From a candidate division LCP-89 bacterium B3_LCP (GTDB lineage: Bacteria > Electryoneota > B3-LCP), in the NCBI GenBank assembly GCA_005223185.1, contig NJBN01000002.1, positions 186,001-250,000 on the forward strand: a DNA stretch of 64,000 bases, given 5' to 3'. The translations under genes and the position numbers were made by a program. Positions 35,412 to 53,809 of the stretch are shown in pieces. The stretch's first letter is position 1, and each line of letters begins with the position of its first letter. The notes under the pieces were generated by a model. That model saw only the letters and a list, made by a program, of their open reading frames with translations, had not been told where the DNA came from and made no database searches.

Positions 35412-36404
35412 ATGGCTTCTGACGTAATTGACACTGCTAACCAGCGCATGCGGGAATTGTACCGGATCAGTACAGAACGCATCGCGCGTGCAGCATCTTC
35501 GGTGCTAATCTTCGGTGAAAGCGGTACCGGTAAAGAACGCATGGCGGGATTGCTGCATGCCCACAGTCAACGGTCACGCAATCCCTTCATAAAGGTTAAC
35601 TGCGCGGCGCTGCCGGAAGGGATACTGGAAAGCGAACTGTTTGGTCACGAAAAGGGAGCTTTTACAGGCGCCATAGCACGCCGACAGGGCTGCTTTGAAC
35701 GCGCTCACACAGGTACTATCTTCCTGGATGAAGTAGCTGATTTGTCTCCGCTGGTCCAGGCGAAACTCTTAAGGGTCATTCAAGAACGAGAATTCGAACG
35801 AGTTGGTGGGTCTGCTACCATCAAAGTTGACGTTCGCATTATCGCCGCAACCAATAAGTTCCTCGAAGATGAGGTTAGAGGGGGAAAATTTCGCGAAGAT
35901 CTTTATTTCAGACTAAACGTCATTTCTATAGAGATCCCTCCACTGCGGGAACGAAAAGAAGATATTCCACTGCTGGCGGAAAAATTTTTAGAAAAGTTCT
36001 GCATAGAAAATCAGCGGAAACGTCAATACTTGACCTCTGATACTGAAGACTACCTACAGTGTTACCATTGGCCAGGAAATATTCGGGAGCTTGAAAATCT
36101 AATTGAACGCCTGACCGTTCTGGTTCCTGCAGATACCATAACCATCGAAGACCTGCCACGGGAAATTACCAATCCGGAACAATCCTCCCCAAATATTGGT
36201 ATTAATCATCCACCTACGCTTAAAGCTGCCAGAGAACAATTGGAACGGGGTATGATCGAACAGACGCTGGCGCGCTGCCGAGGAAACGTTACCGCTTCTT
36301 CCGCCATTTTGGGCATCGCCCGAAAGAACCTTCAGCATAAAATCCGTCAATACGGTATCGAACCAGCCCAATACCGCGGTCAGCGCGCCGATACCGAAGC
36401 TTGA
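35412..36404 (+). CDS. stand-alone sigma-54 enhancer-binding activator (AAA+ and Fis-type HTH, no receiver)
   Basis: About 330 residues from ATG 35412; a TTG at 35388 would add eight. The AAA+ domain begins almost at once with Walker A GESGTGKE (~35-42). The sigma-54 contact loop GAFTGA is intact (~83-88), followed by FLDEVADLS (Walker B) and FREDLYFRLNVI. The C-terminus has a Fis-type helix-turn-helix (RGNVTASSAILGIARKNLQHKI, ~290-311). There is no receiver, GAF or PAS domain, so control must come from a partner protein or from expression level, as with PspF. It stands directly upstream of the small-gene locus with a candidate -24/-12 promoter and is the likely activator. Confidence 0.9.
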   Translation: MASDVIDTANQRMRELYRISTERIARAASSVLIFGESGTGKERMAGLLHAHSQRSRNPFIKVNCAALPEGILESELFGHEKGAFTGAIARRQGCFERAHTGTIFLDEVADLSPLVQAKLLRVIQEREFERVGGSATIKVDVRIIAATNKFLEDEVRGGKFREDLYFRLNVISIEIPPLRERKEDIPLLAEKFLEKFCIENQRKRQYLTSDTEDYLQCYHWPGNIRELENLIERLTVLVPADTITIEDLPREITNPEQSSPNIGINHPPTLKAAREQLERGMIEQTLARCRGNVTASSAILGIARKNLQHKIRQYGIEPAQYRGQRADTEA

Positions 36405-36584: not shown

Positions 36585-36632
36585 ATGAACGTTCTGGGCA
36601 CTTTGGCAGAGTCTTTGCAAAGAATAAAGTAA
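36585..36632 (+). CDS. possible 15-codon leader peptide
   Basis: ATG 36585 has an excellent ribosome binding site, AAAGGAG at 36573-36579 with 5-base spacing, behind a good sigma-70 promoter. It reads MNVLGTLAESLQRIK and stops at 36630-36632, 15 bases before the FlgM-like start. Its body overlaps the candidate sigma-54 promoter, so both may not be functional. It could be a leader peptide or an accident. Confidence 0.3.
   Translation: MNVLGTLAESLQRIK
36604..36619 (+). promoter_or_regulatory. candidate sigma-54 (-24/-12) promoter
   Basis: TGGCAG-AGTCT-TTGCA (36604-36619): GG at 36605-36606 and GC at 36617-36618, the exact 12-base offset of the sigma-54 consensus TGGCAC-N5-TTGCA. Transcription would start near 36630, just before the FlgM-like gene at 36648. 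A sigma-54 activator gene lies immediately upstream, which strengthens the call. Confidence 0.5.
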
Positions 36633-36647
36633 AACAGGTCAAGAATC

Positions 36648-36911
36648 ATGTCCAAAATCAACCCATTACAGAGAGTTCCAGGACTACCAGATCAGGGATC
36701 TAACGACAAGAACCGCATCCATAGATCTGATAAGTCCTATAAAATGTTTGAACTGGATAAAGTGGAAATATCCAGAGAAGCCCGCGAAGTACAGCGCACG
36801 GAAAACGCTGGTGCGATCAATACCGGACACACGGAATTGACCAACGAAGCGCGTAAAATGGGTAACCAGTGGTATCTCGTCGGTTACCACATGCAATCTG
36901 TGAATAAATAA
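36648..36911 (+). CDS. small FlgM-like protein (candidate anti-sigma factor)
   Basis: An 87-residue hydrophilic protein. The block LDKVEISREAREVQR (residues 36-50) resembles the D-x-V-x-[IL]-S-x-x-A-x-x-[LV]-Q segment of FlgM, the anti-sigma-28 factor, and FlgM is of similar length. The rest is low in hydrophobic residues, as expected for an intrinsically disordered FlgM-type protein. It sits behind overlapping sigma-70 and sigma-54 promoter candidates, is followed by a strong terminator hairpin, and faces a minus-strand sigma-28 promoter. Similarity is by motif only. An anti-sigma function is an inference. Confidence 0.5.
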   Translation: MSKINPLQRVPGLPDQGSNDKNRIHRSDKSYKMFELDKVEISREAREVQRTENAGAINTGHTELTNEARKMGNQWYLVGYHMQSVNK

Positions 36912-36913
36912 AA

Positions 36914-36947
36914 AAACGGAAGCTGGATGTATCACCAGCTTCCGTTT
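36914..36947. terminator. strong hairpin terminator after the FlgM-like gene (possibly bidirectional)
   Basis: AAACGGAAGCTGG (36914-36926) pairs perfectly over 13 bases with CCAGCTTCCGTTT (36935-36947), with an 8-base loop. A-run on the left and TTTAAATT on the right would let it work in both directions. It separates the plus-strand FlgM-like gene from the converging minus-strand RNA that ends at about 36961. Confidence 0.75.
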
Positions 36948-36960
36948 AAATTGAACTTAT

Positions 36961-37095
36961 AAAAAAGGCCAACAGGTTTTGGTCCTGTGCCATGTTGCCA
37001 GCATGGTTTCCCGACTCCCCGGTGATTGATTTGCTTTTCAGGTCCTTTTGAACGAACCTTTTGTTGGTCGTCAGTGCGGGACCGTGGTTGGCCTC
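36961..37095 (-). ncRNA. candidate sigma-28-dependent small RNA (~135 nt)
   Basis: On the minus strand a sigma-28 promoter (37103-37129) is followed about 8 bases later by AGGCCAAC (37094-37087). The segment ends with GTTGGCCT (36973-36966) and then five further T (36965-36961). The two ends are perfectly complementary over 8 bases, so 5' and 3' ends close one structure and the 3' arm plus T-run forms a terminator. Inside are CCATG/CATGG (36990-37006), ACAGG/CCTGT (36972-36988) and GGTCC/GGACC pairings. Three GGA motifs, one in an ACAGGA context, recall CsrA-binding sites. No convincing protein frame starts after the promoter. The length is inferred from the promoter and T-run only. Confidence 0.6.
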
Positions 37096-37102
37096 AGCTA
37101 TT

Positions 37103-37129
37103 TCATCGGCAAAAAAAAGAAAAACTTTA
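37103..37129 (-). promoter_or_regulatory. sigma-28 (FliA-type) promoter, minus strand
   Basis: Read on the minus strand: TAAAGTTT (37129-37122), an 11-base spacer, GCCGATGA (37110-37103). The enterobacterial consensus is TAAAGTTT-N11-GCCGATAA, so 15 of 16 positions and the spacing agree. It points away from the gene at 37133 and into the candidate small RNA. Confidence 0.7.
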
Positions 37130-37132
37130 ATC

Positions 37133-38416
37133 ATGTCGCTAACAATTTCCTGGTTGAACAATTATCCCGAAATCAATTCCCTGCTATACGGGCACAGTGC
37201 TGTCGGTCGTACCTTAGGATCATCGCCTTCAAACACAGCAGAATTCACTGAAGTAGCGGAAAACCAGAAATTTAACGCGCACTCATTTCGCGGCATTCCC
37301 GCCCTGTTTTCCAGTCCCTTTGAGTTGAAAAGCTCCGGTGATTTCAGAGGCGTTCGAGAGAATCTTTTAGTTAACGACGTAATTTTGAGTAAATCGCCTT
37401 ACACAACACCTGAAGAGAAGCATGTCAATAGCCCTATTTCTGATGAAGTCGAAGCTTTTGATACAGCCGCGAGGATCAATCCGGAAGATGATATTCTTCT
37501 TAAGCAACACCAGGAGTTGTATAAGTTCCTATCAGAAAATACGGACGTGCGGGAAGCTTTTCTAAAAGGCGATCACCAGGAAGTGAAGAATGTGCTTGCC
37601 CACGCTGCCAAGACGGAGTTGGGCTGGAGTCCAGAAATTAGTGAATCTTTTCTTCAAGAGCATCCTGAAGTTTCACTGTTAATTGCGGCAAATTTGGGCG
37701 GAATTGCTGATAATCTGAGCGATCCTGATATAGCAGAATCACTTGTCGGCGATGTCCGGGGCAGATACGAAGATGAGATATTTTCGGAGTTAGCAGCCAA
37801 AACATCCGTTATGATGAAGAATTCGCCCAAACTGGACGAAGCTTTCTTCGCAGAGCACCCCAAAGCTGCTCTTTACCTGCTTGAAAATCCGGAAGAGCGC
37901 AAACGCATCGATGGTGAATTGGAAGAACAACTGGAATTCATAAGACACGCATCCAAGTATGAAGATCAGGTCGATCCTGTCACCAGAGCTAAAGCATTAG
38001 CCGGTGATAATGCCACTTTGGATGAAAGCTTCTGGCAGGATAATCCCGGGCTGGCTATGATGCTCCACGCTCAGAATGCCACCGGCAATTCGGACTCACT
38101 TCAGGATGCTGCCTTGAGCTACCCCGATAGTTTCCATACCGGCGGATCGCCCGCCGAATTAATCAGCAGGGATCAGGCTCAGAATGCTTCAGACGAATTG
38201 CACGATCATCAGACTCTGAATTTCGAATATTTTCATAACAATCCCGATTTAACTCGCCTGATAATTGAGAATCCGGAAATAGCAGAAAAATTAGCTGACG
38301 ATTCACGCGTCCAGGAACTGATCGGTACTGACAGTTCCGCCGCAAATGATGTGCTGCGTTCTTACGTTTCGGGAATGCCCTGGCAGGATAAGTCTTACTG
38401 GCATTGGCAGGCTTAA
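37133..38416 (+). CDS. unknown protein with four tandem ~64-residue repeats
   Basis: About 427 residues from ATG 37133. Longer TTG starts would run through the antisense RNA region. There is no signal peptide or membrane segment, and the protein is acidic. It contains a repeat about every 62-67 residues, with cores ESFLQEHPEV (~171), EAFFAEHPKA (~236), ESFWQDNPGL (~298) and EYFHNNPDL (~365). Each core is followed by a Leu/Ile-rich helix-like stretch, often ending in NPE. I recognise no family. It lies at the head of a run of closely spaced genes to 39616, all without known function. No clear ribosome binding site or promoter was found on the plus strand. Confidence 0.7.
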   Translation: MSLTISWLNNYPEINSLLYGHSAVGRTLGSSPSNTAEFTEVAENQKFNAHSFRGIPALFSSPFELKSSGDFRGVRENLLVNDVILSKSPYTTPEEKHVNSPISDEVEAFDTAARINPEDDILLKQHQELYKFLSENTDVREAFLKGDHQEVKNVLAHAAKTELGWSPEISESFLQEHPEVSLLIAANLGGIADNLSDPDIAESLVGDVRGRYEDEIFSELAAKTSVMMKNSPKLDEAFFAEHPKAALYLLENPEERKRIDGELEEQLEFIRHASKYEDQVDPVTRAKALAGDNATLDESFWQDNPGLAMMLHAQNATGNSDSLQDAALSYPDSFHTGGSPAELISRDQAQNASDELHDHQTLNFEYFHNNPDLTRLIIENPEIAEKLADDSRVQELIGTDSSAANDVLRSYVSGMPWQDKSYWHWQA

Positions 38417-38417
38417 C

Positions 38418-38822
38418 ATGAAAAACCCACTGATACAACTTCCACCGGACAGAGTGACGATTTCCGATCAGGGACGTGTGGCATCTAAGAAATGGAAAGT
38501 TGGTGACAAACCGTTCATCCAGATTTTGGAAGAAACAGAGCGCAATCCGTCATCTTCCCAGATAGAACGAAATGCAGAGCAGGTTGATCCCATCCGAAGA
38601 ATCGGGGATGAATCGGAATCTTCTAACTATGGAATGTCACGTAAAGTTACCAGATTGAGTCAGGAAAGCCGTAACATGATTCTGGACATCGGCAGTCGTC
38701 TGGAACTGGATAGTTTCCCGGAAACGAACAACATGATCATACGCAGCATTACCAGAGTGAACTTGAACAACGGAAACAGCGCTTGTGAAACTCACTGGGA
38801 AGTAATCCCTGAAGATATATAG
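38418..38822 (+). CDS. small protein of unknown function with DRVTIS motif
   Basis: A 134-residue protein starting at ATG 38418, one base after the stop of the repeat protein. A longer upstream frame (from 38346) lies inside that gene and is rejected. It is hydrophilic, with DRVTISDQGR at residues 11-20, echoing the DKVEIS of the FlgM-like protein and the DRIQIS of the last gene in the run. A Ser-rich middle is followed by a C-terminal half with alternating hydrophobic residues (NNMIIRSITRVNLNNG), perhaps a beta-rich domain. No catalytic motif is visible. Confidence 0.6.
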   Translation: MKNPLIQLPPDRVTISDQGRVASKKWKVGDKPFIQILEETERNPSSSQIERNAEQVDPIRRIGDESESSNYGMSRKVTRLSQESRNMILDIGSRLELDSFPETNNMIIRSITRVNLNNGNSACETHWEVIPEDI

Positions 38823-38851
38823 AATCACGGTGTAAACCCTAAGGTCATACG

Positions 38852-39040
38852 ATGAAAGTGCGTTCAACAGATCCAATTTATATACAGAAGCAGTTCATAA
38901 AACCTCAACCCCTGATGGATGCGGCGCCACTGTTCGATCCTTTGAAGGATGAACTTCGCAAGATTCGTCAGTCGCAGAAAGATGATCCCTTACTGAAATC
39001 GCTTTTGAACGGTACGGAAAAGATAAACGAATTAGCCTAA
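38852..39040 (+). CDS. small protein of unknown function, 62 aa
   Basis: ATG 38852 is preceded by AAGGT 6 bases upstream. The protein is hydrophilic, with a proline-rich first half and a charged helix-like second half (LFDPLKDELRKIRQSQ). No signal peptide, membrane segment or known motif is visible. Spacing to its neighbours (29 bases before, 11 bases after) supports membership in the same transcript. Confidence 0.5.
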   Translation: MKVRSTDPIYIQKQFIKPQPLMDAAPLFDPLKDELRKIRQSQKDDPLLKSLLNGTEKINELA

Positions 39041-39051
39041 AAGATATTAAG

Positions 39052-39216
39052 ATGAATGAAAGCATCGAAGCGGTAGCAAACAGCCGCATGTTAGCCGAAT
39101 ACCATACCAATCAATCCTATGATTTGGAACGTCAGCAGGAATTGGAAGAATTGGACTATCAAAATGAACGCCCTCCTGAAGAGGGAAAAGGGACGTATAT
39201 AGACGTTTACGTATGA
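39052..39216 (+). CDS. small protein of unknown function, 54 aa
   Basis: ATG 39052 follows the previous gene by 11 bases and opens a frame of 54 codons ending TGA at 39214-39216. The N-terminal half is helix-like and Glu-rich (LERQQELEELDYQNE). The last residues read GTYIDVYV, a conserved-looking hydrophobic end. It is below common length cutoffs but fits the gene spacing and has good codon use. No function is evident. Confidence 0.5.
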   Translation: MNESIEAVANSRMLAEYHTNQSYDLERQQELEELDYQNERPPEEGKGTYIDVYV

Positions 39217-39253
39217 AACTAATCGCCATAATAATAGTAGAATGGGGGAAATC

Positions 39254-39616
39254 ATGATTGACCAGACAAAAATCACAGCATTTTTAGCAGAAAAAATTGG
39301 TCAGCAATTGGCCAATGCACAAAATGCTACACAGCGTAACGAGATTTTAAAAGACGCTATGGATTCTGATATGGTGGACCACCTGCAACAGGTGGCTGAC
39401 GGTGACAGAATTCACGACAAGCTGCAGAGTGTCGTGAATAATCCGGAAATCCGGGATCGCATACAGATTTCCGAAAGAGCTGAAACGCTCTACAGGTTGC
39501 GTGAAGCCCAATTAGAACAAGCACCTGCAAGAGTACATGAGCACCTTCGAACTGACGGTTCAGGAGAACCCTTCGAGGGCAAGGGCTCATTAGGTAATAT
39601 GGATTCAGATACCTAA
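39254..39616 (+). CDS. small protein of unknown function with DRIQIS motif, 120 aa
   Basis: ATG 39254 has GGGGGA (39244-39249) as ribosome binding site; the in-frame ATG at 39242 would overlap that site. The N-terminal ~60 residues look like an amphipathic helical domain (MIDQTKITAFLAEKIGQQLANAQ..). Residues 68-80 (DRIQISERAETLY) repeat the D-[RK]-[VI]-x-I-S-x-x-A motif seen in the FlgM-like protein at 36648 and, in shorter form, at 38418. This is the last gene of the run. The HemW-like gene begins 6 bases later. Confidence 0.55.
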   Translation: MIDQTKITAFLAEKIGQQLANAQNATQRNEILKDAMDSDMVDHLQQVADGDRIHDKLQSVVNNPEIRDRIQISERAETLYRLREAQLEQAPARVHEHLRTDGSGEPFEGKGSLGNMDSDT

Positions 39617-45385: not shown

Positions 45386-48300
45386 CTAATTTCCCAGAAC
45401 CCGCGACGACAGATTCCCTGACGCTTCACCTGCCAGAACGAATGCTGCCCAGAAAGCTGGATGAGAATTGATTCGTTCCCGAACGTGTTGTTGCGCATGC
45501 TGCAAGGCGGTTGCAGGCGTCAACCCCGCTGCGAGATTTCTGTAAAAACGCTTCACTAACACCGCCGTAGCTAAATCGTCAACTTCCCATAACGTTGAAA
45601 TAACCCTGGGAGTTCCGGCGTAAATGAACGCCCGGTTGAGTCCTATTATCTCATCACCGCCTGCTATCGCACTCAAACCGCTTTCACATGCTGATAACAT
45701 GACCAACCAACAGTTTTCCAGGTTAAGACTGAATATTTCGTGCATCTCCAATCGTCCATCTTGGGTGCTGTCCGGAGCCAAAAACAGCGTGGAGAACAGC
45801 GGATTATTCTCATTAAATATACCGTGGCAGGCTAAGTGCAGCGTGCCCGAACTATCACTTTGTTCTATCAATGATACTTCCCTGGCTCCCGCACCGGAAA
45901 AAATGCGCACTGCTGGAAAAGCAAAGCTAATTGACGCCACCTCCTTTTCTGCGAAGAAGAGGCTTTCATGCGAGAGTTCCGAGGACGGATTCCCGAACGC
46001 TGAGATGGGATATTCCCCCCAGCTTTCCCTTCGATTTGCACTTTTCCGGCATATAGAAAAAACGCTGGCTGAAGGGGCTGTGCTGATGCTGAAGTTGTCC
46101 AGCAGGTATTCCCCGGCGTCATTTTGCAGAACATTGAAGGGAAGGTAGTGCAGCGCACCCATCGGCACAATTATTATATGGCTGTGGTTTTGCAAATGCC
46201 CTTCTAACGGTTTGATAAGCTTCTGGTATAGTTTTTGACTTTCATCTGTTACCGATAGTCTTCGATCCAGCTTATACCGCAGATCCGAAATCAACAGCCT
46301 TAGAGAATCTTCACCCACAACAACCTTTCTAACCTGCAATTTCTCAGAGGTCGCCAGGAAAATCACCATTTCTCCATCTAAGAAATAATATTCAATCAGC
46401 GCTTCATCATCTTCCAATATTTGCCTGATATTCTTCACCTTTTCCGGTTGAGCATCAAATAAATCACGCTGCCGGAAGTTCTCAGTTTCCAACTCGTCAG
46501 ATAAATGGACATATACTCCTTCCAGCGAATCGATTGCAGCACTGGATCGCCACAGAATTTCAGATTCTTCCGCTGTCCTTTTATCGCCTTTTGCTTGAAG
46601 TGTATCTCTTCTTTTCTTTAATACGCTGATGTTCTGTAACAATTCCGAAAGTTCGGCAGAATACTGACTTTGCTTGGCGATTTTTCGATCCAGCCCTCCT
46701 CGTTGCAGGAGATCCAGGAAGGACCTGGAACGGGATCTTTCTGCTATTTCAAACGCTGCTTCAACGTTATCTTCATCAAGATAAAGTTCAACCGCCAACT
46801 GATACAGCTTGTTCTTGTCCTCCATGAAGCCACTTTTCAAATTTTCAGATGCAATGCTGGCCCGCATAGCTTCCACTCGAGCTATGGCTGGATTAAGAAT
46901 TTCTATCGCATCTGCTGTTTTTTTGTCAGCTATTTCCAGCTCCGCCAGAGCAAGTTCAATTCTCCAGGTTATTTCATTAAACCCTCTGTCCATCGATATT
47001 TCGTACGCTTCTGACAGATGCTTTCTGGCTTCATTCAATCGTTTTATGTTCGTCCCTATTATTCCCATCCCCAGCATGGAACGGACTTTCACCCGATCAT
47101 CAGATATCTGTTCTCCTAAGCTGAAAGCTTGATTTAAAGCAATCATAGCAGAATCTGGTATTTCTAATTGCAGGTATGCATTGGCTAAATCGAGATATGC
47201 ATACGCCTGCCCTCTCAGGGTACCCAACCTTAGATCTATCTTCAGCGCCTGTTGGAAGCGACTTTTTGCTCTATGGGCATTTCCGGAAGCTAACTCAATT
47301 AACCCTATATTCTTCTCAATCTGGGAACGGCTCTTTTCGTCCTTAGCTTCGATGGCGCCTTGCAGAGCATTCTTGGCTTTTTCCACGGCGCGTTCGTGAT
47401 CTCCTAAGTTGAGATAGATGAGCGCTTCGGTGTTCTGAGTTAGATAACGATACTGCGTCAAGCCCAATTCCCTGAACTGATCGCGAGCGTTTTTCAGGTG
47501 GCTTAAAGCATCCTGATAATCACCCATCTTCCAATATAGACCGGCGATATACTGGTACGTCAACGCTGAAGCGGGCGAGATCTTCTCACCGGCAATATTT
47601 AGCGCTTTGAATTGCGCCACCAAAGCCTTTTCGTAATCTGCCAGACCCTCATATGCCAACCCTAAGTGCTGGTAATATTCGATCGGCAGCGATTCGCGCC
47701 AATCTAACCAGTCAAGTTCCGCAATATGCTCTTCGATACTTTTGAGCGTATTAACAGCATTACTGAACCTATCCTGAGCCAGATAAAGCCTGCTCTGGTA
47801 GATGCCGGAAATAACAAACTGATCGATCTCTTCCCACTCCCAGAATATTGATGAAGCATCCGTTATCGCCGATTCAGCGCTGCTATAGTCGTCCGTCAAC
47901 TCGTACAAGTTAGCTAATATCTGCTCATCGTATGCCGCCTGAAGATCGTCACCTCTCTGCAAGGCGAGCCTCTGCGCATTCCGGCGAGTTTGGATCGCTT
48001 CTTGTAACTGATTATCATATCTTAGATAAACGGAGAGATTACGCAAGCCTTTTTCAAATCCCTGGGTGTTGTCCTGTCTCTGTGCTATTTCGTTAAGGGT
48101 AGTCTGTGAGTTCGCAGCTTCTGCCCAATTTTGTGAAATTCGAGCGGCTCTAATCTTTAGCTTATGGAGGTTAGCGATGCTAACTGAATCATTTAGTTGT
48201 ATTGCCATGTTCAGAGCGCTGTCGTAATAACGTAGCGCCCACTCACCGTCGCCTTTCTCTAAATTGTGGTTGCCTTTCAAGATGGTGGCATTGAAATGCT

Positions 48301-51300
48301 TCTTCGCGTATTCCTGCCTTGCCGACAGATCCATTCCCCCCAAACCATAGTATCTGAATTTGGCACGCGCTTCTGCTAAAGCTCCATTCACCTGTAGATT
48401 TCGCATTGCAGTATCAAATGCAGATCCAGGCGATTTAGTTTCGATCTCTTCTGTGAAGACCTCCATAAATCCTGAAATATAATTACCATCGGCAATATCA
48501 GGTATAAATATCACATTGGAAAATCCCGCAAAAAATCCGATCTTCGCCAATAGTCCTTCTTCCGGGAATGAACCGATTATTATCAATATATCACCCTCCG
48601 CGTATATGCTGAAGAGATCGCGGACGCACCAGGAATATTCTCCTGGACTAATTATTCTCCGATCCAGAGGATGCCCTCGGAAATCAGCCTCAGGTTTGAT
48701 TAAAACCAGGCGGGCTTTTTCTATCTCATCCAGGACGCTTCCAGCTTTGCTGTAATCCGCTTTCATCAGCCCCTTTAGATCAAGGTCAACTGCCAGTGAA
48801 AGATTAGCCCCCCGGCTCAAACTGGTGCTCTTCTGCAGTAGCGATAGGCTCTGCAGATCAGGTAAATAGTAGATGGTGGGTGTGTCAATAGCGGCTTGTA
48901 AGTAATCAGTAATGGTATCACCGGTGTCTGATGACGCAATCATAAATAAACGTTCAGTCGAATCTAATATTCTCTCGATGCTGTCAGGCAGAATGTGAGT
49001 GCGAATGCTATCAGTAATCAGATTGTTGAAATCCTGAAAGACCACCAGCGAATCCCGGTTGAGCAGCAGGTAATACTGGTCATTGGCAATTTGAATCAAC
49101 TGTACTGCCAGATCTCCCTGTTGCAATGTCTTCTTTAAGCTGTCAAGCGGAATCGTTACCGGATAAAAGAGCGATGCAAATTCCGGATCATCCCGGATTA
49201 CGTCTTCAATTGTCTGTGAATATTCGATTTCTAATGATCTTAATTCCTCAATTAAGCGATAAAGCCCTGCTGTATCCGGTTCTGCACTGCTCCTCAAATC
49301 AGCTAACTCGGTTCTCTTGCGTACCATTTCCCGGCGTAGATAAGGTATAGTACCCCCTCCATGTCCCCAGATGAATTTTCGCCGTTCGAATTGTACCGGA
49401 ACCGTACGACTGGAAGTAGCTTCAAGGAGTGATAAATTGGGGAGTATCTGGGCATACTTTGAACATCCATCGAGATCGTCACTCGCAAATGCGTTAATGA
49501 AGCTCAGTTCATACATGATTTTAGCTTCACATTTCCTCCTGCTTATGCCCCCAAAATCCTCCGTATCTTCGGGAAGATCAGCCCAGGTATCTGCTGCCAC
49601 CTCAAACCACTCTTCTGCTGAACGATTCAGCACCCTGCGCAGTGTGGTATCAGCACCTGAAGAACCGCGCTGCTCGGATAGTATGGCAATTCTACCCAAC
49701 CGCCACTGAACGCGCCATACCAGATCATCACGCCCTGTTTTTTTCGCCGTAGTCAATGCTCTATGCAATTCGGAGGCACTCGTCTCTAAATCGTCAAGTG
49801 AGAAGAAGTAGTCACTCAGCAGACACCGTAGTCTCACTTGCAGATGCGGAAATCCACGCTTCTCGCACTCCCCAATACCTGACCGCATGGCCCAGAGTGC
49901 TTCTCCCTGCAAATCCAACTGCTGTATGGTTTCCTCAGGTGATGACGGCTGAAGTTTCGCTGCTGCCTGCAAGCACATAAGACTGTACAGCTCATTGATT
50001 CTGATCCTCTGATAACCAAAGCCCAGCGGGTCCATGGAAAAACGGTTGATCTCCTGTCTATATAAAGACATCAGATCGTTTGTAACTCTTACATCCCTCT
50101 TACCCAGAAGCAGCAATCGATTTAATAGAGACCAATCCAACTCTGTCTCAGGTTCTTCCTCTGAATCCGGGAATTGTTGGAATTCCCTTTTAATACTTCT
50201 CCTGATTTTAGAAGGATTTTCCGGCTCGTTACATTTCAAAAGCCCTCTCTGGATTCTTCCCCACAAATTCTCATCAAATCCTATTCCCTCTTCGACGAAC
50301 CATTCCACTTCCTCCAGATATGTATTCACATTGATACTTTCATCTCCCAGAGTACTCAAGCTTATACAGGCGCTGTTTATCAAGGACGTCAATTCTCCGC
50401 TTCTGTATCCATTCTTTTCAGCGAGCCTGTATGCACGCTGGAAACAACGGCGAGCGCTGATACTCTTTCCTTCTGACCAGAAATAGACGCCCAGTTCATT
50501 CCACCCAATGGCTTCCGCTTCAGCATCTTGGCGGCGGATGGCGATTGCCAGTCGCCGGTTAACTTCCCTCTTTGCGGCACGAACGTCCTTCCTGTTATCG
50601 CTGACGTCCTGGAGAATGGAATGGTTGAGCAATACCTCATCTATTTGCCCCATCCCCGCAGCAGACATCGCCGATCCTGTTCCCAAATAACCGAAGTTCC
50701 ATACCGGTACCGGTATGCCCATAATTTCGATTATCAACGGGTTTTCAATCACCGGCAGAGGAATCTCTTCATCGGGTGGCATGGTGGAAAGCGCTTGTTT
50801 GGATAGCCGGTGGGCTTCCGTATCGTCTCCTAACTTCAATGAGTTGTAAGCCATATTTTCCCACCATCTCGTGGGTGATGACGGTAAGTTTTCCTTCTCC
50901 TTTAAGAGCAGCGCCTCACGGTAGTAATAATTCGATTCCTCTTCATCTTCCAACACCTGATACAGCTCAGCTAACCTCAAGGTTACACGCAGCTCGGAAT
51001 CGTGTTTGCCTAAGTCGTGATAGACCTTCAGTGAATGTTGGTAATATTGTGTTGCACTCTTATTTCCACCGCTTATAGCACCGGCTTTACCCATCCTTTC
51101 GTAAGTTATTCCTTTCTGAAATAGTGAAGTAAATGTGGTATCATACTGCATCCGCCTTTCATAAGCTTCCAAAGCACGAGGATAGCCGAACTCACCTAAA
51201 TGAAAATAATTGTTACCCAAGTTAAGCAATAATTTTGCCTCCAGAGCAGAGTCTGTGGCTTCGTCATTTACTGCTAATCCCAGTTGTAATGTTTCAATAG

Positions 51301-53809
51301 CCTTTTCATAACCCTGCAGAGGACCCGGATTCCCCTGAAACGTAATCGCCCTGAAAAAACGAGTTAAACTCTGTCCGACGTTAGATAAGAACCGTCCGGT
51401 GTTCACAGGTTTTGCAGATTTTAATCTGCTCCTGGTTTCCAGCATTTCATAGTTATATGCCAGCGTCAAATAACCATATCCGATCTCCGGTTCGATAGTT
51501 AACGCTTTTTCGATTAAATCGTTGGATTTATGTAAATAATTATCATTCTTCTCACCCTGATATGAATGGCATAATCCCGAAGCGTAAAGCAGCGCTGGAT
51601 CGTTCGGTCTTAGTTTCAGTTCGGCTGAGTACTCTTCTAAGATGTCTCCCAACGAACCCAGATTCGTAGCCGCCTCTATCCTGCCGCGATGTAGTTTAAC
51701 GTTGTCCTGATCCAGTAAAATCGCTTTTTCGTAATTGACCAGAGCTAATTCCCAATCTCCGGTGGAACTTAAAATATCCGCTCTTTCAGCAAGCATATTA
51801 ACGCGCAGAAAACGTGCTTTTCTTCCGTAGAAGCCCTCTTTTAGTTCGCCGAATTTCTCTTCAACTTCCTGCAGGTGGGCTTGTGCAATCAAAAATTGCT
51901 GGCGATCGTTTTCCAATTCGGCGCTTATCAGGAGACTTTTAGCGAACAGTTCCTCAATATATGGAGTCGGATTTCGAGCTGCGTATCCACGCAGGCGGGC
52001 GTACTCGGAAAGGGCTAAATCGATCTCTCCACTTTCACGTAAAATCTCTGCTATCTCGTACTGTGATGCAGCCCCCAGAGACGGTATATCCGGATACTTA
52101 TTGATCAATTGCTGCAACCCCGCGATGGGATCATCGCCGGATACCTGCAATTTTATTAATTCTAAAATAGCTTTATTCGTCGGTTCAGTACGGAGAGAAT
52201 AGAGTGTAATTACTTCTAAATAGGTCTGCAAAGCCACCGGATCACTGCCCATTTTTGCATAAATGGCAGCAATGCGAAGCAGCGCTTCCGCCGGATGATC
52301 TTCTGCTTCAGGATATTCTGTGGTTACATGACGGTATGATGCCAGCGCCTTCTCGATATTGTCCAGGTATTCGTGGATAGCTCCGATCAAGTAATGCACT
52401 CGTGCCGAAGATACCCTCACCTTCCGATATCTGGATGCTATTTGTCCAAGATTGATAATGAGAGAAAAGGGATTTTCACAGGATCGAATCTTATCATCTG
52501 AGAACCTGACCTTGTGAACATAGAGCTGATAATCTATCTCCGCTTCAACTATAACCGCTCGCTGTTCGGAATAAACCCTGGGAATCCTCTTCAAGAAGGT
52601 CTGCGATTTTTGCGATTCCTCGAATATCTGCAACAGCTTGGCTGATTGGATCATGGATAGTGCACCTGATCGCCTCGCATCGGGGAAATCGGTTCTCACC
52701 TTTTGGAAAGCTAATAACTTCAGCAACTTCTCTCGTTCAGTTAGAGACCTCCCCTCGACTTTTGCTTCCCTCCCGATGGATTTGGCAAAGTCCAATGCCA
52801 TTTCCGCAGTTGAACTACGAGGAATCGGTCCAGCCGCATTACTGCGCCATATATCCGCATTTCCACGGCGATTGCTCACGTGATAAATAAAATCTTCTTC
52901 AGCCCAGCAAGGGTAATTCTCGCTGGCATCACCTATGGAGACCGGGCGGGCATGATATTCACCGCTTACCAAATCAAAACGATAGAGCGACTGCCCATCC
53001 TGCGCTGTGAGCAGACCATCTTCATCCCGATCTTGATTGACCAGAGCTGCGCAGAAACTTTTACCGTTCGGAGCCCACCTGGGCAGAGTCGCTGGAAATG
53101 ATGAAGCGTATGCGGTTGTTATGGTCGGCGCTGGATCTTTTAGCTTTTCTATCTGGATTATGCAGATTTCGTTTATGCCTTTTTCTGAATCGACCCTGAG
53201 GCATAATATCCTGTTATTAGTAGGGTTAAAACAGGGTTGAACGTATCCCGAAGCTGTCAATATCATATCCCCACGCTTCCCGATCCTGCGCATGATCAAT
53301 TTGCCTTGATCACTAACACCATCCTGATAAACGATGTACTTGGCGTCCTCTGAATAACTGGGAAAACTCTGCCATCCCGGTTTCTCCACGATGCGTCTGA
53401 TACTGTATGATCGGGGCTTGCCAGAACGAATGGAGAATTTCAGCGTGTATATGTCTCCGGCGGGATCGTCGCGCATGGAAACAAAGCAGATCCGGTTTCC
53501 CTTCGGCGACCATACAGGTGAAAAATCGTCAGCGGGATGACTGGTTAACTGGATGGGAACGCCTCCTTCAAGAGGGCGTATCCACAGATCATAGTTACCT
53601 GAACTATTGGATACGTAGAGCAGCCATCGTCCATCTGGAGAGATTGCTGGATCTATTTCGGAGCTTAAAGCTGCGGTGAGTGGGTGAGGAAGCTGAAGTT
53701 TGAGTTCCGTTGAATCGGCAGGCGCCGCCCGAATGGTTTCAGCAGGACAGGCAGGTTGAATGACGGCTGATAAAAGAAGTATTAAAAAGGATATTCTCTT
53801 TAGCATCAT
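45386..53809 (-). CDS. giant exported CHAT protease with beta-propeller, TPR arrays and a second degenerate CHAT-like domain
   Basis: A 2807-residue protein. A signal peptide (MMLKRISFLILLLSAVIQPACPA) is followed by TolB/PD40-type propeller repeats (~50-330; SPDGRWLLYVSNSSGNYDLW) and a long TPR region (~440-1450). Residues ~1560-1805 are laid out like a CHAT domain but lack both catalytic residues. A second TPR array (~1830-2330) follows, then a complete CHAT domain (~2480-2800). In the latter, His2662 (HLACHG) and Cys2708 (LSACESG) form the expected caspase-like dyad, and the family blocks IVPMGALHYLPF and VISTLWEVDD are present. CHAT proteases cleave partner proteins after a TPR-sensed trigger. 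The signal peptide places this one outside the cytoplasm. It starts 12 bases after the DUF1318-like gene. Confidence 0.88.
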   Translation of the reverse strand: MMLKRISFLILLLSAVIQPACPAETIRAAPADSTELKLQLPHPLTAALSSEIDPAISPDGRWLLYVSNSSGNYDLWIRPLEGGVPIQLTSHPADDFSPVWSPKGNRICFVSMRDDPAGDIYTLKFSIRSGKPRSYSIRRIVEKPGWQSFPSYSEDAKYIVYQDGVSDQGKLIMRRIGKRGDMILTASGYVQPCFNPTNNRILCLRVDSEKGINEICIIQIEKLKDPAPTITTAYASSFPATLPRWAPNGKSFCAALVNQDRDEDGLLTAQDGQSLYRFDLVSGEYHARPVSIGDASENYPCWAEEDFIYHVSNRRGNADIWRSNAAGPIPRSSTAEMALDFAKSIGREAKVEGRSLTEREKLLKLLAFQKVRTDFPDARRSGALSMIQSAKLLQIFEESQKSQTFLKRIPRVYSEQRAVIVEAEIDYQLYVHKVRFSDDKIRSCENPFSLIINLGQIASRYRKVRVSSARVHYLIGAIHEYLDNIEKALASYRHVTTEYPEAEDHPAEALLRIAAIYAKMGSDPVALQTYLEVITLYSLRTEPTNKAILELIKLQVSGDDPIAGLQQLINKYPDIPSLGAASQYEIAEILRESGEIDLALSEYARLRGYAARNPTPYIEELFAKSLLISAELENDRQQFLIAQAHLQEVEEKFGELKEGFYGRKARFLRVNMLAERADILSSTGDWELALVNYEKAILLDQDNVKLHRGRIEAATNLGSLGDILEEYSAELKLRPNDPALLYASGLCHSYQGEKNDNYLHKSNDLIEKALTIEPEIGYGYLTLAYNYEMLETRSRLKSAKPVNTGRFLSNVGQSLTRFFRAITFQGNPGPLQGYEKAIETLQLGLAVNDEATDSALEAKLLLNLGNNYFHLGEFGYPRALEAYERRMQYDTTFTSLFQKGITYERMGKAGAISGGNKSATQYYQHSLKVYHDLGKHDSELRVTLRLAELYQVLEDEEESNYYYREALLLKEKENLPSSPTRWWENMAYNSLKLGDDTEAHRLSKQALSTMPPDEEIPLPVIENPLIIEIMGIPVPVWNFGYLGTGSAMSAAGMGQIDEVLLNHSILQDVSDNRKDVRAAKREVNRRLAIAIRRQDAEAEAIGWNELGVYFWSEGKSISARRCFQRAYRLAEKNGYRSGELTSLINSACISLSTLGDESINVNTYLEEVEWFVEEGIGFDENLWGRIQRGLLKCNEPENPSKIRRSIKREFQQFPDSEEEPETELDWSLLNRLLLLGKRDVRVTNDLMSLYRQEINRFSMDPLGFGYQRIRINELYSLMCLQAAAKLQPSSPEETIQQLDLQGEALWAMRSGIGECEKRGFPHLQVRLRCLLSDYFFSLDDLETSASELHRALTTAKKTGRDDLVWRVQWRLGRIAILSEQRGSSGADTTLRRVLNRSAEEWFEVAADTWADLPEDTEDFGGISRRKCEAKIMYELSFINAFASDDLDGCSKYAQILPNLSLLEATSSRTVPVQFERRKFIWGHGGGTIPYLRREMVRKRTELADLRSSAEPDTAGLYRLIEELRSLEIEYSQTIEDVIRDDPEFASLFYPVTIPLDSLKKTLQQGDLAVQLIQIANDQYYLLLNRDSLVVFQDFNNLITDSIRTHILPDSIERILDSTERLFMIASSDTGDTITDYLQAAIDTPTIYYLPDLQSLSLLQKSTSLSRGANLSLAVDLDLKGLMKADYSKAGSVLDEIEKARLVLIKPEADFRGHPLDRRIISPGEYSWCVRDLFSIYAEGDILIIIGSFPEEGLLAKIGFFAGFSNVIFIPDIADGNYISGFMEVFTEEIETKSPGSAFDTAMRNLQVNGALAEARAKFRYYGLGGMDLSARQEYAKKHFNATILKGNHNLEKGDGEWALRYYDSALNMAIQLNDSVSIANLHKLKIRAARISQNWAEAANSQTTLNEIAQRQDNTQGFEKGLRNLSVYLRYDNQLQEAIQTRRNAQRLALQRGDDLQAAYDEQILANLYELTDDYSSAESAITDASSIFWEWEEIDQFVISGIYQSRLYLAQDRFSNAVNTLKSIEEHIAELDWLDWRESLPIEYYQHLGLAYEGLADYEKALVAQFKALNIAGEKISPASALTYQYIAGLYWKMGDYQDALSHLKNARDQFRELGLTQYRYLTQNTEALIYLNLGDHERAVEKAKNALQGAIEAKDEKSRSQIEKNIGLIELASGNAHRAKSRFQQALKIDLRLGTLRGQAYAYLDLANAYLQLEIPDSAMIALNQAFSLGEQISDDRVKVRSMLGMGIIGTNIKRLNEARKHLSEAYEISMDRGFNEITWRIELALAELEIADKKTADAIEILNPAIARVEAMRASIASENLKSGFMEDKNKLYQLAVELYLDEDNVEAAFEIAERSRSRSFLDLLQRGGLDRKIAKQSQYSAELSELLQNISVLKKRRDTLQAKGDKRTAEESEILWRSSAAIDSLEGVYVHLSDELETENFRQRDLFDAQPEKVKNIRQILEDDEALIEYYFLDGEMVIFLATSEKLQVRKVVVGEDSLRLLISDLRYKLDRRLSVTDESQKLYQKLIKPLEGHLQNHSHIIIVPMGALHYLPFNVLQNDAGEYLLDNFSISTAPSASVFSICRKSANRRESWGEYPISAFGNPSSELSHESLFFAEKEVASISFAFPAVRIFSGAGAREVSLIEQSDSSGTLHLACHGIFNENNPLFSTLFLAPDSTQDGRLEMHEIFSLNLENCWLVMLSACESGLSAIAGGDEIIGLNRAFIYAGTPRVISTLWEVDDLATAVLVKRFYRNLAAGLTPATALQHAQQHVRERINSHPAFWAAFVLAGEASGNLSSRVLGN

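Follow-up and report, generated by a model that had tools for sequence, protein, structure and literature searches.

Between a FlgM-like gene and an orphan gene, the minus strand of this contig almost certainly encodes a structured small RNA that has a sigma-28-type promoter and belongs to a conserved family. The host is an uncultured, flagellated member of candidate division LCP-89, in the FCB group (according to the named records). The structured RNA family was previously uncatalogued and is absent from Rfam, and as far as we have seen, it seems to be confined to one family of LCP-89. The promoter, structure, strand, conservation, and independence from neighboring genes were all established by comparing sequences. 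The RNA probably regulates the building of the flagellum, in bacteria that are without the usual RNA-helper proteins. In the window (the entire 64,000-nt stretch of DNA that we analyzed), the locus is arranged as follows:

36648 to 36911, plus strand: FlgM-like gene (87 amino acids), convergent with the RNA; orthologs only in G001 and G003; not needed for the RNA
36961 to 37095, minus strand: small RNA of about 135 nt, with covariance model matches in five genera
36961 to 36966, minus strand: T-run, the putative intrinsic terminator, read directly from the sequence; a T-rich tail is also present in G002, G003, and G005
37103 to 37129, minus strand: sigma-28 (FliA)-type promoter, with the -35 box TAAAGTTT at 37129-37122, an 11-nt spacer, and the -10 box GCCGATGA at 37110-37103
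37133 to 38416, plus strand: orphan gene (427 amino acids), divergent from the RNA; orthologs only in G001 and G003; not needed for the RNA

A preliminary description of this DNA had proposed a minus-strand FliA promoter with a spacer of 11 bases and 15 of 16 consensus letters, and this promoter was confirmed (TAAAGTTT-TTCTTTTTTTT-GCCGATGA, from 37129 to 37103). It is the best sigma-28 site among roughly 128,000 positions (both strands of the 64-kb window) and the only one with 15 matches; the runner-up has 13 of 16. The other elements described at the time are also present: an arm, GAGGCCAAC (37095-37087), starts seven bases past the -10 box, and its complement about 120 bases on, GTTGGCCTT (36973-36965), is the closing arm of the element and continues into TTTTTT (36966-36961). 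The boundaries of the small RNA were set from the promoter and the T-run, and the predicted start is at about 37095-37098. The FlgM-like gene ends at 36911 and is followed by a hairpin (approximately 36915-36950), so the two transcripts would converge, as had been proposed. The name "FlgM-like" fared less well: there is a weak match to the FlgM profile of Pfam (E = 0.07 over 18 residues), but no match in NCBIfam. The FlgM-like protein and two small proteins (38418-38822 and 39254-39616) share a V-x-I-S type motif that resembles the N-terminal half of FlgM, and the proteins of this region (36648-39616) might be a family of flagellar proteins that are exported or have a regulatory role. The 427-amino-acid orphan was found in just three genera, and its AlphaFold model (all helical, pLDDT of 57) was not good enough to search for similar folds.

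A strict sigma-28 pattern matches just 1-4 sites per genome; the sites in G000, G001, and G004 include promoters that belong to flagellin genes or to a MerR-flagellin operon. Therefore, sigma-28 appears to control the late flagellar genes in these bacteria, and the small RNA has their type of promoter. In two genera, a gene for a MerR-type regulator lies between the sigma-28 promoter and flagellin (L073, 1241-1800; L074, 830-1350), which suggests that this regulator provides feedback at a late stage. Sigma-54 is also in use for some genes, namely, the FlgM-like gene (36604-36619) and a FlgF-like gene. The sigma-54 promoter ahead of the FlgM-like gene, TGGCAGAGTCTTTGCA, has no clear counterpart elsewhere in the window and is kept in G001 and G003; a gene for an NtrC-type sigma-54 activator (35412-36404) is just upstream of it.

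A DNA similarity search of 61 genomes found no homolog of the RNA besides its own locus. By protein synteny, orthologs of the FlgM-like and 427-amino-acid proteins are adjacent in G001 and G003, two members of the same family, and in both, a minus-strand promoter and a closing stem lie between the two genes. The closing stem of G001 carries a compensatory change from GC to AU. We aligned these three copies by hand, according to their structure, to build a covariance model (R1); short loops were padded with Ns, some extra loop bases of G003 were trimmed, and the promoter was outside the model. When compared to 39 genomes of the phylum, R1 recovered the three copies it was built from and two new loci, in G005 (E = 3.4e-13) and G002 (E = 2.7e-8). 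Both of these have a sigma-28 promoter, a GGCCAAC/GTTGGCC stem, and a T-run, and both are at the syntenic site, between a TPR/PMT gene and hemW. A second model, built from the five copies, was compared to 386 genomes and found the same five loci and one chance-level match. Matches in G019 (E = 0.99) and G036 (E = 0.32) each appeared with one model but not the other, so we took them to be chance. Overall, the RNA was found in five of the six genomes of the family, representing five genera, and in none of the 380 other genomes.

The promoter is kept along with the RNA. The spacer is 11 nt in G001, G003, and G002 (whose promoter is TAAAGTTC-N11-GCCGATGA) and 12 nt in G005 (TAAAGTTT-N12-TCCGATAT). 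The distance from the start of the -10 box to GCCAAC recurs in the five genera at 18-19 nt (18 nt in the window, G001, and G003). The promoter and stems persist in five of the six family members; the sixth, G004, is flagellated and has the syntenic locus and the flagellins intact but is missing the RNA (L071, 735-925). G004 seems to have lost the RNA, or never had it; therefore, the RNA is not essential.

The consensus structure has five stems: P1 closes the RNA; P2 is inside it; P3 bears P4 and a long unpaired stretch; and P5 follows. In the window, the elements are as follows:

37087 to 37095, minus strand: 5' arm of the terminal stem P1, GAGGCCAAC; 97.8% of cells are paired, with one compensatory change (GC to AU)
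36965 to 36973, minus strand: 3' arm of P1, GTTGGCCTT, which pairs with 37087-37095
37079 to 37083, minus strand: 5' arm of P2, GGTCC; four of five pairs are changed on both sides
36981 to 36985, minus strand: 3' arm of P2, GGACC; four of five pairs are changed on both sides
37066 to 37074, minus strand: 5' strand of P3, CTGAC-GA-CC; 88.6% of cells are paired; weaker in G001
37011 to 37019, minus strand: 3' strand of P3, which pairs with 37066-37074
37040 to 37059, minus strand: P4 hairpin, AGGTTC/GGACCT; six of eight model pairs are changed on both sides; missing in G002
37022 to 37034, minus strand: conserved unpaired 13-nt loop, GCAAATCAATCAC; the family consensus is GCGAnUCAACCrC, kept in all five copies
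36990 to 37006, minus strand: P5 hairpin, CCATG/CATGG; three of six pairs are changed on both sides; missing in G002

When folded alone, the window copy is mildly more stable than shuffled sequences (z = -1.6 and -2.0 in two runs). Therefore, one sequence could not settle the question: the single-sequence fold is weak evidence, and the real evidence is comparative. Across the five copies, 92.5% of cells are paired, as compared with 24-50% if the partners are slid, 15 pairs have both sides changed, and none of 500 shuffles reaches the covariation score, although these figures come from just five sequences and lean toward the structure, as the alignment was fitted to the model. As a check that involves no fitting, G005 and G002, neither of which went into R1, were each folded alone, and their minimum-free-energy folds reproduce the consensus architecture. 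The G002 copy is just 91 nt: it lacks P4 and P5 and retains P1, P2, P3, and the loop (CGCGAATCAACCAC). This short copy thus retains the loop, which is the most constrained unpaired element of the family and therefore the likeliest working part of the RNA.

The preliminary description had also suggested comparing the RNA to Rfam and looking for covarying stems at homologous loci. Covarying stems are present at those loci, and no known family matched: in the window, there was no match at the gathering threshold (including 6S RNA and the c-di-GMP riboswitches), and at relaxed thresholds (E up to 5), the RNA at the five homologous loci had no match either. More broadly, the claim of a discrete minus-strand RNA of about 135 nt, of the sigma-28 type and in an FCB bacterium, is well supported by the comparison across five genera.

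We considered how such an RNA might act. Searches for CsrA (PF02599) and Hfq (PF17209) recovered both proteins in control genomes but neither in any of the six family genomes. These metagenome-assembled genomes are 93-96% complete; therefore, the joint absence from six of them is convincing. The reading as an Hfq-type small RNA was rejected on this ground. CsrA binding, which the preliminary description had proposed on the basis of three GGA motifs, was dropped as well: besides the missing CsrA gene, there are four GGA motifs in the window copy and 1-4 per copy, which is near expectation, and they are mostly in or beside stems, at positions that are not conserved. A CsrA sponge was rejected on the same grounds, as GGA is not conserved in loops. 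This leaves three modes: the RNA might bind a protein, bind a ligand, or act by base pairing without Hfq. Among bacterial small RNAs, base pairing is the most common way of acting.

With moderate confidence, we propose a free-standing, sigma-28-dependent, structured small RNA that acts in trans, independently of Hfq and CsrA, by base pairing of its loop with one or more mRNAs. From the sequence comparisons, we infer that it is transcribed, when it is made, that it acts in trans, and that it does so by base pairing. Activation of sigma-28 would cause the RNA to be made alongside flagellin. P1 and P2 would clamp the ends of the RNA, with P1 also serving as the terminator stem, and P3 would present the unpaired 13-nt loop (GCGAnUCAACCrC), while P4 and P5 would be dispensable. 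The loop would then be the seed for base pairing in trans with at least one mRNA late in flagellar assembly, and neither Hfq nor CsrA would take part. If the RNA does act in trans, base pairing would be its probable mode.

The search for targets covered about 0.85 Mb from five genomes, which is a minor part of each genome. Within this sample, duplex energies against approximately 400 gene starts (44 ortholog groups) did not identify a consistent base-pairing target: the best mean rank was 0.197 (FlgK), which is about the chance level for 44 groups. Exact complements of 8-10 nt were specific to each genome, and no complementarity to the sigma-54 leaders of these stretches was found. The fold is also more elaborate than a seed would require, and the RNA might instead bind a protein or a ligand.

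First, the RNA might be a protein-binding decoy whose loop mimics codons 4-7 of flagellin mRNA (within MSTRINHN, CGAATCAAYCAC) and titrates a factor that acts at flagellin starts. The loop does have the same sense as these codons (CGAATCAATCAC; flagellin starts in L073, L074, and L076) and matches the best flagellin start at 11 of 13 positions in G000 and 10 of 13 in G001. With a profile of the loop, these two starts score 15.1, whereas no unrelated site on either strand of the 64-kb window scores above 14.8. However, the likeness was noticed post hoc, RINH is a common peptide (the MerR gene in the same operon of G001 also has the word), the loop and the flagellin start do not covary between genomes, and CsrA, the known factor of this type, is absent. 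We consider a decoy unlikely. For the more specific idea that the loop copies the flagellin mRNA start to titrate an RNA-binding factor other than CsrA, thereby linking flagellin translation to the activity of sigma-28 in bacteria that have neither Hfq nor CsrA, we see a slim chance.

Second, the RNA might bind or store a ligand, like the merRNA of attack-phase Bdellovibrio with its c-di-GMP riboswitch. The compact multibranched fold with a conserved unpaired core would suit such a role, and Bdellovibrio has abundant structured RNAs and some small RNAs with FliA promoters (PMC3627812). However, the lack of Rfam matches at gathering or relaxed thresholds means that it does not belong to any known riboswitch class, and for an aptamer, the core is only modestly conserved, so this reading seems rather unlikely.

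Third, the RNA could act in cis, as an antisense to the leader of the divergent operon or to a transcript that reads through from the FlgM-like gene into the 427-amino-acid gene. In the window and in G001 and G003, only a few bases separate the end of the promoter from the start codon of the 427-amino-acid gene, so that any read-through mRNA would be complementary to the RNA. As the main function, though, action on that operon was not borne out. The comparison bears on INDEPENDENCE from neighbours: G002 and G005 keep the RNA, its promoter, and its terminator without the FlgM-like or 427-amino-acid genes, so the RNA does not always occur together with the gene it would oppose. Furthermore, selection seems to act on the structure and the loop rather than on complementarity, which would be automatic. 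We consider cis-antisense action to be improbable. Conversely, because the RNA is kept where those two genes are missing, it is highly likely to be a regulator that acts in trans.

Fourth, the conserved structure could be the plus-strand leader of the divergent operon, as the plus strand also beats shuffles in folding. However, cells with G-U outnumber those with A-C by 14 to 3, which favors the minus strand; the promoter has the same orientation in all copies, as does the T-run in four of the five; and the downstream gene varies among genomes. A leader is thus very improbable. Finally, the mild significance of the window copy's single-sequence fold might hint at chance promoter-like and stem-like sequence, or the region might encode a small protein, but with the promoter, its spacing, and covarying stems in five genera and no reading frame common to the five copies (they differ in length and contain stops), the probability of either is negligible; a conserved protein frame had been named at the outset as evidence against an RNA.

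With a sigma-28 promoter directly upstream of a noncoding element and no conserved reading frame, the RNA can be provisionally assigned from its sequence features to the functional class of sigma-28-dependent small RNAs, with an unusual structure and host background. Such RNAs are known from few bacteria (E. coli, Campylobacter, and Bdellovibrio). In Campylobacter, CjNC1 and CjNC4 depend on sigma-28 and act independently of Hfq in an E. coli reporter system (PMC4626219), and CJnc170 (FlmR) depends on sigma-28/FliA (PMC11187230). These share with the LCP-89 RNA the sigma-28/FliA type and the flagellar order from sigma-54 to sigma-28, but no relation to it in sequence was found (no Rfam match here), and the LCP-89 RNA has a covarying, multibranched fold of about 135 nt. 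UhpU, MotR, FliX, and FlgO of E. coli are similar in being transcribed by sigma-28 and in presumably tuning flagellar output; however, they are derived from UTRs, bind Hfq, and work with it (PMC10578931), whereas the LCP-89 RNA is free-standing and no Hfq gene was found. Among the Bdellovibrio RNAs (PMC3627812), merRNA is likewise structured and free-standing and three attack-phase small RNAs have a FliA promoter, but the LCP-89 RNA does not contain a c-di-GMP riboswitch or any other Rfam match. Sponges of the CsrB/RsmY type are also structured and contain GGA; in contrast, CsrA was not detected in the LCP-89 family, and GGA is neither clearly enriched nor conserved in loops.

The conservation of a structured, sigma-28-type RNA in uncultured FCB bacteria in which neither Hfq nor CsrA was detected suggests that RNA-based control of the late flagellar stage evolved independently here, and that such control can work by another mechanism. 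The working part of the RNA is open to direct testing, thanks to the 13-nt loop and to G002, where a minimal form of 91 nt occurs naturally. Elsewhere in the window, the minus strand contains a very large open reading frame (2,807 amino acids, 45386-53809).
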